DNA from: a virus
Length of the DNA: 25,214 bases
Reading direction: 5' to 3' (one strand)
Virus record (IMG/VR): IMGVR_UViG_3300017750_000104
Span: 1 to 25,214 of that record
A program made the position numbers and the translations under genes. Below are positions 18,755 through 24,934 of the stretch, one piece after another. Below the pieces are notes generated by a model. That model ran no database searches. It saw nothing but the letters and a program-made list of their open reading frames with translations, and had not been told where the DNA came from. How positions within the stretch are numbered: the stretch's first letter is position 1; each line of letters starts with the position of its first letter.

Positions 18755-18868
18755 GTGAATTGGCTTGATGCAGAATTGATACAAGCAATCAATGAAATTT
18801 CTTGGTTTGACGGCATAGGAACACTTGTTGTTTTATTGGTTGCATATGCCATTTTTAAAAGAATTTAA
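18755..18868 (+). CDS. 37-residue single-span membrane peptide
   Basis: A short gene beginning at GTG 18755, two bases after the holin stop. It encodes 37 residues: an acidic amphipathic N-terminus (NWLDAELIQAINEISWFD) then one hydrophobic helix (GTLVVLLVAYAIF) and a basic end (KRI), so the N-terminus is probably outside. The clean topology, coupling to the holin and lack of stops support a real gene. It may be an antiholin or other lysis modulator; it resembles no family I can name. Confidence 0.45.
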   Translation: MNWLDAELIQAINEISWFDGIGTLVVLLVAYAIFKRI

Positions 18869-18878
18869 GCATAAATAA

Positions 18879-18992
18879 ATGCCAAAATACATTAAATTTT
18901 TGATCATTTTAATGTTGGTTGAAATTGTATTACATATCGCTGAAATCGGCTTTGACCTTGCACAATACCTTAATTTAACCAAATATATTTAA
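18879..18992 (+). CDS. 37-residue membrane peptide, last lysis gene
   Basis: ATG 18879 opens a 37-codon frame ending in TAA. The product has a basic start (MPKYIKF), one membrane helix (LIILMLVEIVLHIAEIG) and a short tail (FDLAQYLNLTKYI). It follows the previous small membrane peptide by 10 bases and closes the late rightward block; the next 485 bases hold the attachment region. No strong SD is seen. A role in lysis control is possible; a chance ORF is the alternative. Confidence 0.4.
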   Translation: MPKYIKFLIILMLVEIVLHIAEIGFDLAQYLNLTKYI

Positions 18993-19001
18993 ATTTTATT
19001 T

Positions 19002-19086
19002 TGTACTGTTTGATGTACTGATTTAGGTATATTCATAAGTATAATATGTGCATAAAACAGTACATTTTGTACTGATTTTTGTACTG
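19002..19086 (+). repeat. Cluster of TGTACTG repeats (integrase arm sites?)
   Basis: TGTACTG occurs at 19002-19008, 19014-19020, 19068-19074 and 19080-19086, and inverted (CAGTACA) at 19058-19064. Both direct pairs are spaced exactly 12 bases start to start. Another copy lies at 19443-19449, and an inverted AGTACAAAA at 19237-19245, so copies flank the tRNA core on both sides. This is how arm-type binding sites of tyrosine integrases are arranged; regulator binding sites are the alternative. Confidence 0.55.
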
Positions 19087-19133
19087 ATACTAACTTTACT
19101 TGATTTCTGGTAGTTACAAGAGTTTTACACTGT

Positions 19134-19173
19134 CTTTCAAGACCAGTGCATTCAACCACTCTGCCATCTCTCC
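19134..19173 (-). other. attP core: 5' half of tRNA-Ser(UGA)
   Basis: Read on the minus strand from 19173, the sequence is a tRNA-Ser 5' half: acceptor strand GGAGAGA, T8-G9, D-arm GCA...TGC with GTGGTTGAA loop, then CTGGT and the anticodon loop CTTGAAA (anticodon TGA at 19137-19139). After the loop the match breaks down: GACAG does not fully pair with CTGGT, and no variable arm, TPsiC arm or CCA end follows. It is therefore not a working tRNA gene but a fragment, as expected for an attachment site where crossover occurs in the anticodon loop. Confidence 0.7.
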
Positions 19174-19194
19174 ATATCCACAGTCAGTGGGTAT
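19174..19194 (-). other. Hairpin abutting the tRNA-Ser 5' end
   Basis: ATATCCAC and GTGGGTAT can pair around the loop AGTCA (one T-G position in DNA, a wobble in RNA of one strand). The stem ends exactly at the first base of the tRNA acceptor strand. It might shape the leader that RNase P removes, or be a protein site; chance is possible. Confidence 0.35.
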
Positions 19195-19220
19195 CTTACT
19201 AAAATATAATTAAGATTCAA
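19193..19220 (-). promoter_or_regulatory. Candidate promoter reading into the tRNA-Ser half
   Basis: On the minus strand TTGAAT (19220-19215) and TAAGAT (19198-19193) are separated by 16 bases, a fair sigma-70-type match. The start of transcription would fall near 19186, about a dozen bases before the tRNA 5' end at 19173. A promoter here is needed if integration separates the host promoter from the rebuilt tRNA. Confidence 0.45.
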
Positions 19221-19229
19221 CTCTTAATT
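19208..19229 (+). terminator. AT-rich perfect hairpin, possible weak terminator
   Basis: AATTAAGA and TCTTAATT form a perfect 8-bp stem around TTCAAC, followed by TTT on the plus strand. It could be a weak end for the rightward late transcript. It overlaps the -35 of the leftward candidate promoter, so it may instead be a regulatory site. Low GC makes it a poor terminator. Confidence 0.3.
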
Positions 19230-19403
19230 TTTAAATAGTACAAAACCTCCCCAACAAATTAATCGGTATAATCCGAACATAAATATGCGTTAATATTAAA
19301 TAATATACATATATTTAAAAATATTTTTTTTATTAAAAAGCCTAGTTTTACTGGTGTTTTGTTAAATATTTACACTGGTTTTTAAAAAAAGTAAAAAAAA
19401 GAC

Positions 19404-19434
19404 TTGTAAAGTATACCATTTTAGATAATATAAT
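19404..19434 (+). promoter_or_regulatory. Candidate promoter of integrase operon with operator-like spacer
   Basis: TTGTAA (19404-19409) and TATAAT (19429-19434) lie 19 bases apart, upstream of the gene at 19478. The spacer contains GTATACCATTTTA (19411-19423), identical to 24505-24517 upstream of the repressor, where TTTACA and TATTAT are also 19 apart. A regulator bound there would block RNA polymerase. On the minus strand the motif reads as an extended -10 (TGGTATACT), so it could also be a leftward promoter. Confidence 0.4.
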
Positions 19435-19466
19435 ATATATATTGTACTGAATATTAATTTTAAAAA

Positions 19467-19475
19467 AGCGAGAGA
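19467..19475 (+). promoter_or_regulatory. AGCGAGAGA translation leader, copy 1
   Basis: AGCGAGAGA ends two bases before ATG 19478. The same nonamer precedes the two next genes at the same distance, marking the true starts. It is not a classical GGAGG SD. Confidence 0.5.
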
Positions 19476-19477
19476 TA

Positions 19478-19976: not shown

Positions 19977-21197
19977 ATGAAAATAATATTTAAAAAACCT
20001 TTTAAAAAAAATTATGATTCAGTTAATAAACGATATTCTTATCGCATACGATTTACTGTTAAGTTTAATTTAAAAAATCAATTTGATAAAGAAACAACTT
20101 GTTCCGAGGATAAATTTCCTCACATTGAAAAAATAATTAATGATAAATATAAAAATTCTAAATTAGAACAATTTCAATTTGATGCATCGCAGAAACAAAA
20201 AAATAAAAAAGTTTATTTAGAAAAAATGTTTTTTGATTTAGTTAAAAAATATCGTGAATATAGGAAACAACTAATTACTAATAGAAAATTTGATGGTTAT
20301 GGTATTTTAAGCAATACCTACAAAACAGAATATTTTCACATGAAAAGTATACAACAAAAAATTAAGAATTTTAATTTTATAAAATGTGATGATATTACAC
20401 CTGAATTTGTTAACAAAAATTTTTTATTTGAATTTAGAAACTCAGCCAAATTTCATATCAATAAAGGTAAAAAATGTTATGACTTTATAAAAAAAGCAAT
20501 TATTTATGGAAGAGACATTGGATGGATTAAAAGACATAATATTGTTTTTAAAAAATTTGCAGATGATGTTGGCAGGGTTACTAAAAAAAATAATATTTTA
20601 CCAACTCCAACTAAAGATGAAGTTAAAAATATATTAAAACATTTACCCTTTAGATCATTTGTCATCACAACAGTTTTGGTTGAAACTGGATTAAGAATTG
20701 GTGAATTAAATGGTTTATTCTGGTCGCATTTAGATAAAAAAAATAAACTTTTATTAGTAAGTCAAGCAATAAGCGATAAACAAATTGAAGGCACAAAAAC
20801 TGAAAATGGAAATCGTGATATTCCAATTAATGAAGAGTTAATTTTATTGTTAGAAAAATATAAGCGCACACTTGGTAAAATACCAAAAGCAAACGATTTT
20901 ATATTTCCTCATAAAAATGGATCGGGTATTCCTGATAAAAAAGAAACTAATTATAATCAGCTTATGCGTATTTGTAAAAAATTAGGTTACATTAAAAAAA
21001 GCAAAAATCATAAGGGGCAAATTATATACTCAGGTAAATTTGGTAATCATGCCATGCGAAGATTTTTTAGAACTCAATGTGTTGCAAAAGGCATAGATAA
21101 TTTAGCAATCGATTATATAATGGGTCAATCTAGTCGAGGTAGTATTGGTGAAAGAAGATATACGGATCGTAAGCAATTAGTGCCACAAAAGGTATGA
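19977..21197 (+). CDS. int: Tyrosine-family integrase
   Basis: Integrates and excises the phage genome at the tRNA-Ser site. 406 residues: an N-terminal arm-binding-like region (about 1-75, RYSYRIRFTVKFN), a core-binding helical region (about 80-200) and a C-terminal catalytic domain. Visible catalytic residues: Arg240 in ETGLRIGEL, Lys274 in GTKTENGNRDIPI, His358 and Arg361 in NHAMRRFF, and Tyr395 in RRYTD. The usual second His/Trp (LGH) is Gln384 (MGQSS), a less common variant. It sits 800 bases from the attP core, with its leader and start well defined. It is the third gene of a small rightward operon. Confidence 0.9.
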   Translation: MKIIFKKPFKKNYDSVNKRYSYRIRFTVKFNLKNQFDKETTCSEDKFPHIEKIINDKYKNSKLEQFQFDASQKQKNKKVYLEKMFFDLVKKYREYRKQLITNRKFDGYGILSNTYKTEYFHMKSIQQKIKNFNFIKCDDITPEFVNKNFLFEFRNSAKFHINKGKKCYDFIKKAIIYGRDIGWIKRHNIVFKKFADDVGRVTKKNNILPTPTKDEVKNILKHLPFRSFVITTVLVETGLRIGELNGLFWSHLDKKNKLLLVSQAISDKQIEGTKTENGNRDIPINEELILLLEKYKRTLGKIPKANDFIFPHKNGSGIPDKKETNYNQLMRICKKLGYIKKSKNHKGQIIYSGKFGNHAMRRFFRTQCVAKGIDNLAIDYIMGQSSRGSIGERRYTDRKQLVPQKV

Positions 21198-23798: not shown

Positions 23799-24455
23799 TT
23801 ATATTTGTGAAAAAACTGCAACAATCTTTGTTATTTTATGAAACTTATCGTAAGGTACTTTTTTATTCGTTATATCTTTAAATATTATAGCTTTACCAAA
23901 ACATGACAATTTAATATTTTCAGAGTCATATTCATCAATGGTTCGAGCCGTTGCCATTAATTCATTTTCAGCATTAGGGTTCTTTATTTGAACAAGCACC
24001 TGATCACCAACAGAATAAGTTGCATCATAATCACATAGAACATATGCACCTTGTTTAATTATAGGTTGCATACAATTAGCCGTAATTTGAACTAAAAACT
24101 GATTATCTTTTATTTTCCAAGGTACAAAATAATTAGGCTTTATATTAGTCATATTAATTGAACCATTCATGTTTCTGTTTCCATAAACCCCAGTTTGATT
24201 TTTATTATTATCATTTGATATAAATTTATTTATATCTAACTCACCTTGCAATTCTTGTTGTTTATTTAAAACATCATTTATGTTTAAATTAAATGCCGTT
24301 GATATTTTATTGAGTGTTTCAATACGAATTTTTCTATCAATATTTTCATTTTCAAGTCTGGATACTTCGGCTTGTGTTATACCTAATTTTCTTCCCATTT
24401 GGGTTTGAGATAGGTTATGTTTGGCTCTGTAATAAGCAATAATACTTTTATTCAC
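23799..24455 (-). CDS. CI-like repressor with degenerate S24 peptidase domain
   Basis: Maintains lysogeny by binding operators. 218 residues: N-terminal helix-turn-helix of Cro/CI type (about 5-60; LSQTQMGRKLGITQAEVSRL), an Asn-rich linker (about 65-108, with NRNMNGSINM), and a C-terminal S24/LexA-like domain (about 110-218; FLVQITANCMQPIIKQGAYV and VGDQVLVQI). The usual catalytic Ser (in GDSM) is Cys128 here, and the expected Lys position, 42 residues on, is Ala170 (ELMATAR). No clear Ala-Gly cleavage site is seen. It is divergent from the Cro-like gene. Promoter-like motif 24504-24513 lies about 50 bases upstream of its start. Confidence 0.8.
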   Translation of the reverse strand: MNKSIIAYYRAKHNLSQTQMGRKLGITQAEVSRLENENIDRKIRIETLNKISTAFNLNINDVLNKQQELQGELDINKFISNDNNKNQTGVYGNRNMNGSINMTNIKPNYFVPWKIKDNQFLVQITANCMQPIIKQGAYVLCDYDATYSVGDQVLVQIKNPNAENELMATARTIDEYDSENIKLSCFGKAIIFKDITNKKVPYDKFHKITKIVAVFSQI

Positions 24456-24712
24456 ATTAGTTGACCTATAAATTGTTTATATACATATATACTATTTTTT
24501 TACAGTATACCATTTTAAATTAATATTATACTTATTATTTAAATAAATAAAGTGTAATAATAATTATTGTCAAAATAAATAATTGTTTAAAATATTTGCA
24601 CACTAAGTATTTGCATATAAATTAATCTTTTTAAAAAAAACATTTGCAAAGTCAAAATTAATTTATAATTATATACCATATATATATTGTTTAAGTGCAT
24701 AAGGTATGGTTT
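24456..24712. promoter_or_regulatory. Divergent switch region between repressor and Cro-like gene
   Basis: About 250 AT-rich bases with no gene. It holds GTATACCATTTTA (24505-24517, minus-strand extended -10 TGGTATACT), TATACCATATAT (24672-24683), a leftward TTGACA (24573-24568), two TATTTGCA copies 15 bases apart (24593-24600, 24608-24615) and an ATTTGCA (24642-24648). TATAAT at 24664-24669 could be the -10 of the rightward promoter. AAGG (24701-24704) is the SD of the Cro-like gene. Operators are likely here, but I cannot assign them surely. Confidence 0.5.
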
Positions 24713-24934
24713 GTGAAATTAAAAGATTATCTCATTAATAATTTAATTACTGAAAAAAAATTTGCTGATCAACTTGGTGTTAAGCAACCAACTGTTTCAA
24801 GATACTTACATAATCTAAGAATACCCAAAAAAAATATTTTAAATAAAATTAGAGAAATTACTCAACAACAAGTCACTGAATCTGATTTTCCAACTCAAGT
24901 GCATTGGAAACAAAGAGGAAAAGATAATGGGTAA
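24713..24934 (+). CDS. Cro-like helix-turn-helix regulator
   Basis: About 73 residues from GTG 24713, chosen because AAGG lies 8 bases upstream and the product then begins like typical family members (KLKDYLINNLIT). An in-frame GTG at 24695 would add six residues but has no SD. The helix-turn-helix is TEKKFADQLGVKQPTVSRYL with the recognition helix KQPTVSRYLHNL. The C-terminus is short and basic (VHWKQRGKDNG). It is divergent from the repressor, so it probably acts as Cro in the lytic choice. Its 3' end overlaps the next gene by 8 bases. An antisense ORF over its 3' half is a shadow. Confidence 0.75.
   Translation: MKLKDYLINNLITEKKFADQLGVKQPTVSRYLHNLRIPKKNILNKIREITQQQVTESDFPTQVHWKQRGKDNG

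Follow-up and report, generated by a model that had tools for sequence, protein, structure and literature searches.

The window analysed here, i.e., the whole 25,214-base stretch (~31% GC) of the marine phage record IMGVR_UViG_3300017750_000104, is divided into two parts by a stretch without coding (~18990-19477). To its left lie phage structural and lysis-type genes, including those for an SU10-type portal and an M15 peptidase (Pfam), and to its right lies a temperate module comprising a tyrosine integrase (406 aa; 19977-21197, plus strand; PF00589, E = 9.4e-16), SSB, ERF, a CI-like repressor with an S24 domain (23799-24455, minus strand; Pfam), and a Cro/YdaS-like HTH protein (24695-24934, plus strand; Pfam). 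The portal gene is interrupted at the left end of the window, so the phage record is a fragment. Portal relatives (L029 and L030/L068, 99.9% identical) extend the phage sequence, and the nearest of these contigs ends at 18862, before the attachment site described below. Among phage genomes, BLAST returned no DNA-level match to the attachment site and integrase region, and the integrase itself had a single weak relative there and none on plasmids. The integrase reads MGQSS, i.e., it has Q at the usual catalytic His/Trp of the GHSS motif, where its relatives in the viral contigs L071 and L069 have H.

Within the noncoding stretch, sequence matching identified the 5' half of a tRNA-Ser(UGA) gene on the minus strand, extending over 39 nt from the acceptor strand to the end of the anticodon loop (19173 to 19135, GGAGAGATGGCAGAGTGGTTGAATGCACTGGTCTTGAAA; anticodon 19139-19137) and followed by the phage sequence GACAGTGTAAAACTC. 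As an earlier note on this DNA had described, the half gene terminates in the anticodon loop, CTTGAAA, beyond which identity is lost at once (GACAGTG in the phage, ACCAGCA in hosts). All 39 nt (39/39) are identical to the intact tRNA-Ser(tga) of L005, one genome in a collection of 84,980 species, and tRNA-Ser(UGA) genes of an AT-rich alphaproteobacterial order (hereafter the order of G143, after one of its genomes) differ from the window half by 1-2 mismatches. ARAGORN called no tRNAs across the whole window. A 3' half elsewhere in the phage, which the note had named as a finding that would speak against its reading, was searched for and is found nowhere in the window, itself a fragment of the phage genome. 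Rfam tRNA models are blind to half genes, and cmscan is hence uninformative for this site. Joined in silico, the phage 5' half and a host 3' half were called as tRNA-Ser(tga), and the opposite junction was not a tRNA. The core with the crossover region, CACTGGTC-TTGAAA-GACAGTG (19128-19147, minus strand), reads as an imperfect inverted repeat about the anticodon loop, the arrangement expected of tyrosine-integrase core sites. Its right arm, GACAG, is phage-specific; it is present in L071 too, and in the host genome G422 GACAACAG follows a displaced host 5' half.

The tyrosine integrase gene lies next to this site, at a distance of 0.8 kb, and the core is flanked on both sides by repeats that we predict to be arm-type integrase sites. 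With at most one mismatch, TTTTGTACTG occurs 12 times in the window, against 4.9 occurrences expected, and five copies of this family (all three exact ones and two near ones) fall within 450 bp around the core. On the basis of this repeat count, predicted sites with TTTTGTACTG are placed on the plus strand at 18999-19008 (P arm), 19065-19074, and 19077-19086. The P' arm would comprise TTTTGTACTA (19236-19245, minus strand), directly upstream of the candidate tRNA promoter, and TATTGTACTG (19440-19449, plus strand). The terminator scan also located a terminator-like perfect hairpin, CAGTACATTTTGTACTG (19058-19074, both strands), which has T tracts on both strands and overlaps the arm sites.

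Instead of an attachment site, a half gene of this kind could be what is left of a phage-encoded tRNA that has decayed, or a piece of tRNA DNA acquired by accident. Complete tRNA-Ser(UGA) genes do occur in marine T4-like viral contigs (L002, 12175-12264; L003, 12297-12386; L004, 1-76), with 34 nt identical to the half gene in the window; these contigs were discarded as carrying unrelated phage tRNAs. However, the two related phages L071 and L069 are difficult to reconcile with decay or capture. L071 (IMGVR_UViG_3300020391_000025), whose integrase is 48% identical to that of the window, carries GGAGAGATGGCAGAGCGGTTGAATGCACTGGTCTTGAAAGACAG at the matching place and strand, i.e., 43 of 44 nt (half gene plus GACAG) as in the window, and its truncation point is unchanged despite neighbouring genes at 45-88% identity. 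The sole change in its half gene falls at a position that is variable among host tRNAs too. Since the arm-like repeats of L071 differ from those of the window (ATGACTAA, three copies left of the core), core and half gene were kept while the arms changed. L071 excepted, an identical attP was not recovered again in the viral collection. L069 (L032/L069; sister contig IMGVR_UViG_3300025803_000134) shares the flanking genes, with a portal 70% and an integrase about 31-35% identical to those of the window. At its orthologous place stands TTTGTGGTACCGAAGGTCGTGGGTTCGAATCCCATCAGCCACCCCA, whose sequence we read as a tRNA-His 3' half that starts at the anticodon loop; this half gene is followed by a strong intrinsic terminator (2373-2394; whole arrangement, 2290-2394) and then by the integrase. 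This ordinary 3'-half layout, in which another tRNA is likewise divided within its anticodon loop, establishes the place as attP. Considering also that the site is flanked by arm repeats and an integrase, a decayed or captured tRNA is a very improbable explanation. Judging from these orthologous sites, the tRNA half that is supplied can switch within one phage lineage, with a 3' half and terminator in L069 and a 5' half in the window.

A crossover in the anticodon loop had been proposed in the earlier note, and it is the position predicted by the truncation shared with L071, by the split of tRNA-His at that point in L069, and by a host 5' half cut at TTGAAA in G422. The note's further claim, that this attP carries the 5' rather than the usual 3' part of its target, agrees with the same half in L071 and the conventional 3' half in L069. 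In the passages of the Islander report that give such counts, 3,760 islands carry a 3' and 159 a 5' displaced tDNA fragment (3,919 in total), and the 5' mode is thus uncommon but already on record, at ~4% of islands (PMC4383910). By the same passages, the 5'-fragment islands resemble the window in having a tyrosine integrase, a tRNA target, a crossover in the anticodon loop (subsite A), and an element that supplies the 5' part (PMC4383910). They differ in that Islander provides counts, whereas the window provides a free phage attP together with a promoter that is conserved both in a related phage and upstream of host genes.

The promoter had been proposed as TTGAAT-N16-TAAGAT, and it indeed lies at 19193-19220 on the minus strand (hexamers 19220-19215 and 19198-19193), 19 nt upstream of the tRNA. 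By itself, however, it is a chance-level match: 8 of 12 positions agree with the consensus, and about two thirds of random 60-mers from the window score at least 8. The promoter scan lists nothing at 19220-19193, and approximately five chance sites are expected in the region. These figures would suit an attP that carries the 5' half and an accidental promoter match, with the rebuilt tRNA transcribed otherwise, e.g., by readthrough from phage early transcripts. Comparison with other loci argues against an accident. In L071, TTGAAA-N16-TAGAAT likewise stands 19 nt before the tRNA half and matches 10/12 of the consensus; at a fixed position and spacing, a 10/12 match has a rate of 1.6e-4 in the L071 locus. 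Two genomes, G428 and G429, have TTGAAA-N16-TATGAT 19 nt before an intact tRNA-Ser(UGA). The 60 nt upstream of their tRNA-Ser are identical to the phage at 44 positions (background mean 18.6, sd 3.7), a value reached by 0 of 270,750 background comparisons. When all three were compared, the hexamers proved more conserved than their surroundings, with 9/12 hexamer positions identical versus 19/48 of the other positions. Phage-like promoter geometry was absent from the remaining host tRNA-Ser genes inspected. Since spacing and distance are kept in L071 and in G428/G429, with hexamers closer to the consensus than those of the window, it is comparison, and comparison only, that makes the promoter convincing; by this measure 19220-19193 looks like a real promoter, and we consider an accidental match unlikely.

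We thus take 19000-19450 to be, very probably, a temperate-phage attP at which the integrase crosses over into a host tRNA-Ser(UGA) gene within the anticodon loop, with the tRNA gene rebuilt and run from a phage-borne promoter. The attP, its 5' half, the predicted anticodon-loop crossover, and the candidate phage-borne promoter are each supported by comparisons independent of the window, and we infer the integration of the window phage itself, the activity of the promoter, and the identity of the host. In this mechanism, the tyrosine integrase would recombine attP with the host tRNA-Ser(UGA) gene inside the anticodon loop, with the phage 5' half and promoter on the integrase side of the crossover. 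At the integrase-side junction, phage promoter and 5' half would be joined to the host 3' half to give a working tRNA-Ser, and the serine tRNA of the lysogen would be transcribed from the phage-borne promoter. At the other junction, the displaced host promoter and 5' half would be joined to GACAGTG and the late-gene end of the phage, into which the displaced promoter would fire; the hairpin at 19058-19074 may end both late transcription and, in the lysogen, this transcription from the host promoter. Phage-brought promoter and 5' half would tie the supply of host serine tRNA to phage DNA, and therefore excision, mutation, or regulation at attP could alter translation in the lysogen. To our knowledge, nearly every phage described as targeting a tRNA gene relies on the host for the promoter of that gene. 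A limited literature search, which does not establish the absence of a published case, found no rebuilt tRNA for which a conserved promoter carried by the phage had been described. Integration with a 5' fragment was already known; the distinguishing feature here is the conserved phage-borne tRNA promoter.

Conventional attP sites, such as those of L069 and of mycobacteriophages, e.g., Boilgate (PMC10865867), share with the window the integrase superfamily, a crossover in the anticodon loop, and a half gene on the integrase side, and L069 also shares the orthologous attP position. However, a conventional attP supplies the 3' half (with a terminator in L069) and the host promoter is retained, whereas the window supplies the 5' half and a promoter. 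The tRNA-dependent lysogeny of Fionnbharth and others (PMC10865867) is similar in that an essential tRNA gene is targeted, phage DNA secures the supply, and a phage promoter drives the tRNA. In that system the common core spans only 8-17 bp and does not restore the host tRNA, whose loss is made good by a separate and complete tRNA of the phage (PMC10865867). Were the window phage of this type, the host tRNA would not be usefully rebuilt and a complete phage tRNA-Ser would lie elsewhere, conceivably in the missing part of the genome since the window is a fragment. Against this, the window itself holds no tRNA, the phage retains 39 nt together with a promoter, and in silico the host gene is restored as a tRNA-Ser; we regard this alternative as highly unlikely. 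A further parallel is that of marine phage contigs in which an integrase accompanies a partial tRNA gene with an identical counterpart in a host (PMC3861242). In passages of that paper the tRNA match serves host prediction, and those passages leave the half used and its promoter undiscussed. The half-tRNA match of the window also offers a host link for uncultured marine phages.

The earlier note had pointed to SAR11 and related genomes for comparison, and no exact match supports SAR11 as the host. A half-gene search of sampled Alphaproteobacteria led to the order of G143, a small AT-rich order (32 genomes, mostly 0.9-1.4 Mb) whose tRNA regions are mostly 26-32% GC, i.e., phage-like. In three of its genomes the tRNA is identical to the L071 half, and the others differ from the window half at the 1-2 positions noted above; the exact window 39-mer was absent from the matched genomes of this order. 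The host is probably to be sought in this order, to which G143, G428, and G429 belong, and not in SAR11 proper. HIMB59/AEGEAN-169 would presumably fit as this order. The genome with the exact 39-nt match (L005/G001, labelled Magnetovibrio) was set aside as host on account of its higher GC, a tRNA upstream region without a comparable promoter, and the lack of a related integrase in its order. Integrated relatives and their attL/attR were sought, as the note had advised. No intact prophage with a related integrase turned up among the 32 genomes of the likely host order, the 317 of G001's order, or 385 of the class, and integrase matches in the class sample were discarded as weak and not related elements. 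Junction-like sites were recovered in G422, G428, and G429.

In four of the 32 genomes of the order of G143 (G423, G426, G428, and G429), TTTTGTACTG occurs 40-70 nt before GGAGAG, always at tRNA-Ser. In G428/G429 it aligns with the phage P' arm site beside the promoter (19236-19245). G423 (L102, 14601) and G426 (L106, 8695) have TTTTGTACTG 50-70 bp before tRNA-Ser, without a phage-like promoter. One explanation is that this phage group takes over transcription of the host tRNA-Ser, and that promoter, arm site, and 5' half were left behind in G428/G429, and perhaps in G423/G426, after prophage loss; we put this forward tentatively, as somewhat less than an even chance. If so, a core tRNA gene has had its promoter changed for good by phage integration, a process that may contribute to the turnover of promoters at tRNA genes of bacteria. 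A different origin, compatible with the attP reading, is that the promoter-like regions of G428/G429 are not prophage scars but native host DNA, captured by an ancestral phage through imprecise excision. The neighbours of the G428/G429 sites are conserved host genes, found repeatedly beside tRNA-Ser in the order, and phage homologues are absent from the vicinity; the sites are hence at best scars, or else the DNA from which the phage took its copy. In G423/G426, too, the distal part of the upstream sequence looks native. On the other hand, the region holds an arm-type site that is found five times in the phage attP, but in the ~270 kb of host flanking sequence retrieved occurs only within 75 bp upstream of tRNA-Ser. 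Weighing these observations, we consider a native origin to be almost an even prospect.

A host 5' half displaced at the same point occurs in G422 (L095, 7546-10261; G422:C2), in an element that is not the window phage. There, the host upstream region and a 5' half cut at TTGAAA are followed by GACAACAG, and then by genes for a restriction-endonuclease-like protein and a DNA methyltransferase; no integrase accompanies them. The tRNA-Ser that comes next is intact but diverged (GGAGAGT/ACTCTCC acceptor), and the host upstream region is repeated before it, again in diverged form. This layout is the remnant expected from an element that brings its own 5' half and promoter region. Two decayed copies bearing the 3' half come last, and the whole has the look of a tandem array holding a cargo element that lacks an integrase.

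Other islands adjoin tRNA-Ser in these genomes. In G428, an island of ~6 kb (L098, 10606-16961; G428:C13) is bounded on one side by the intact tRNA-Ser and on the other by a copy whose 3' half is perfect but whose 5' half has decayed; its genes appear to encode a fasciclin-like protein, a dehydrogenase, and an ABC transporter with a periplasmic binding protein. On the 3' side of the tRNA-Ser of G429 (L100, 5629-15119; G429:C8) lie a tyrosine integrase and genes named from reading of their sequences, one for a large helicase of the UvrD type, one DUF262-like, and one PD-(D/E)XK-like; this is possibly a defence island of the 3'-half type.
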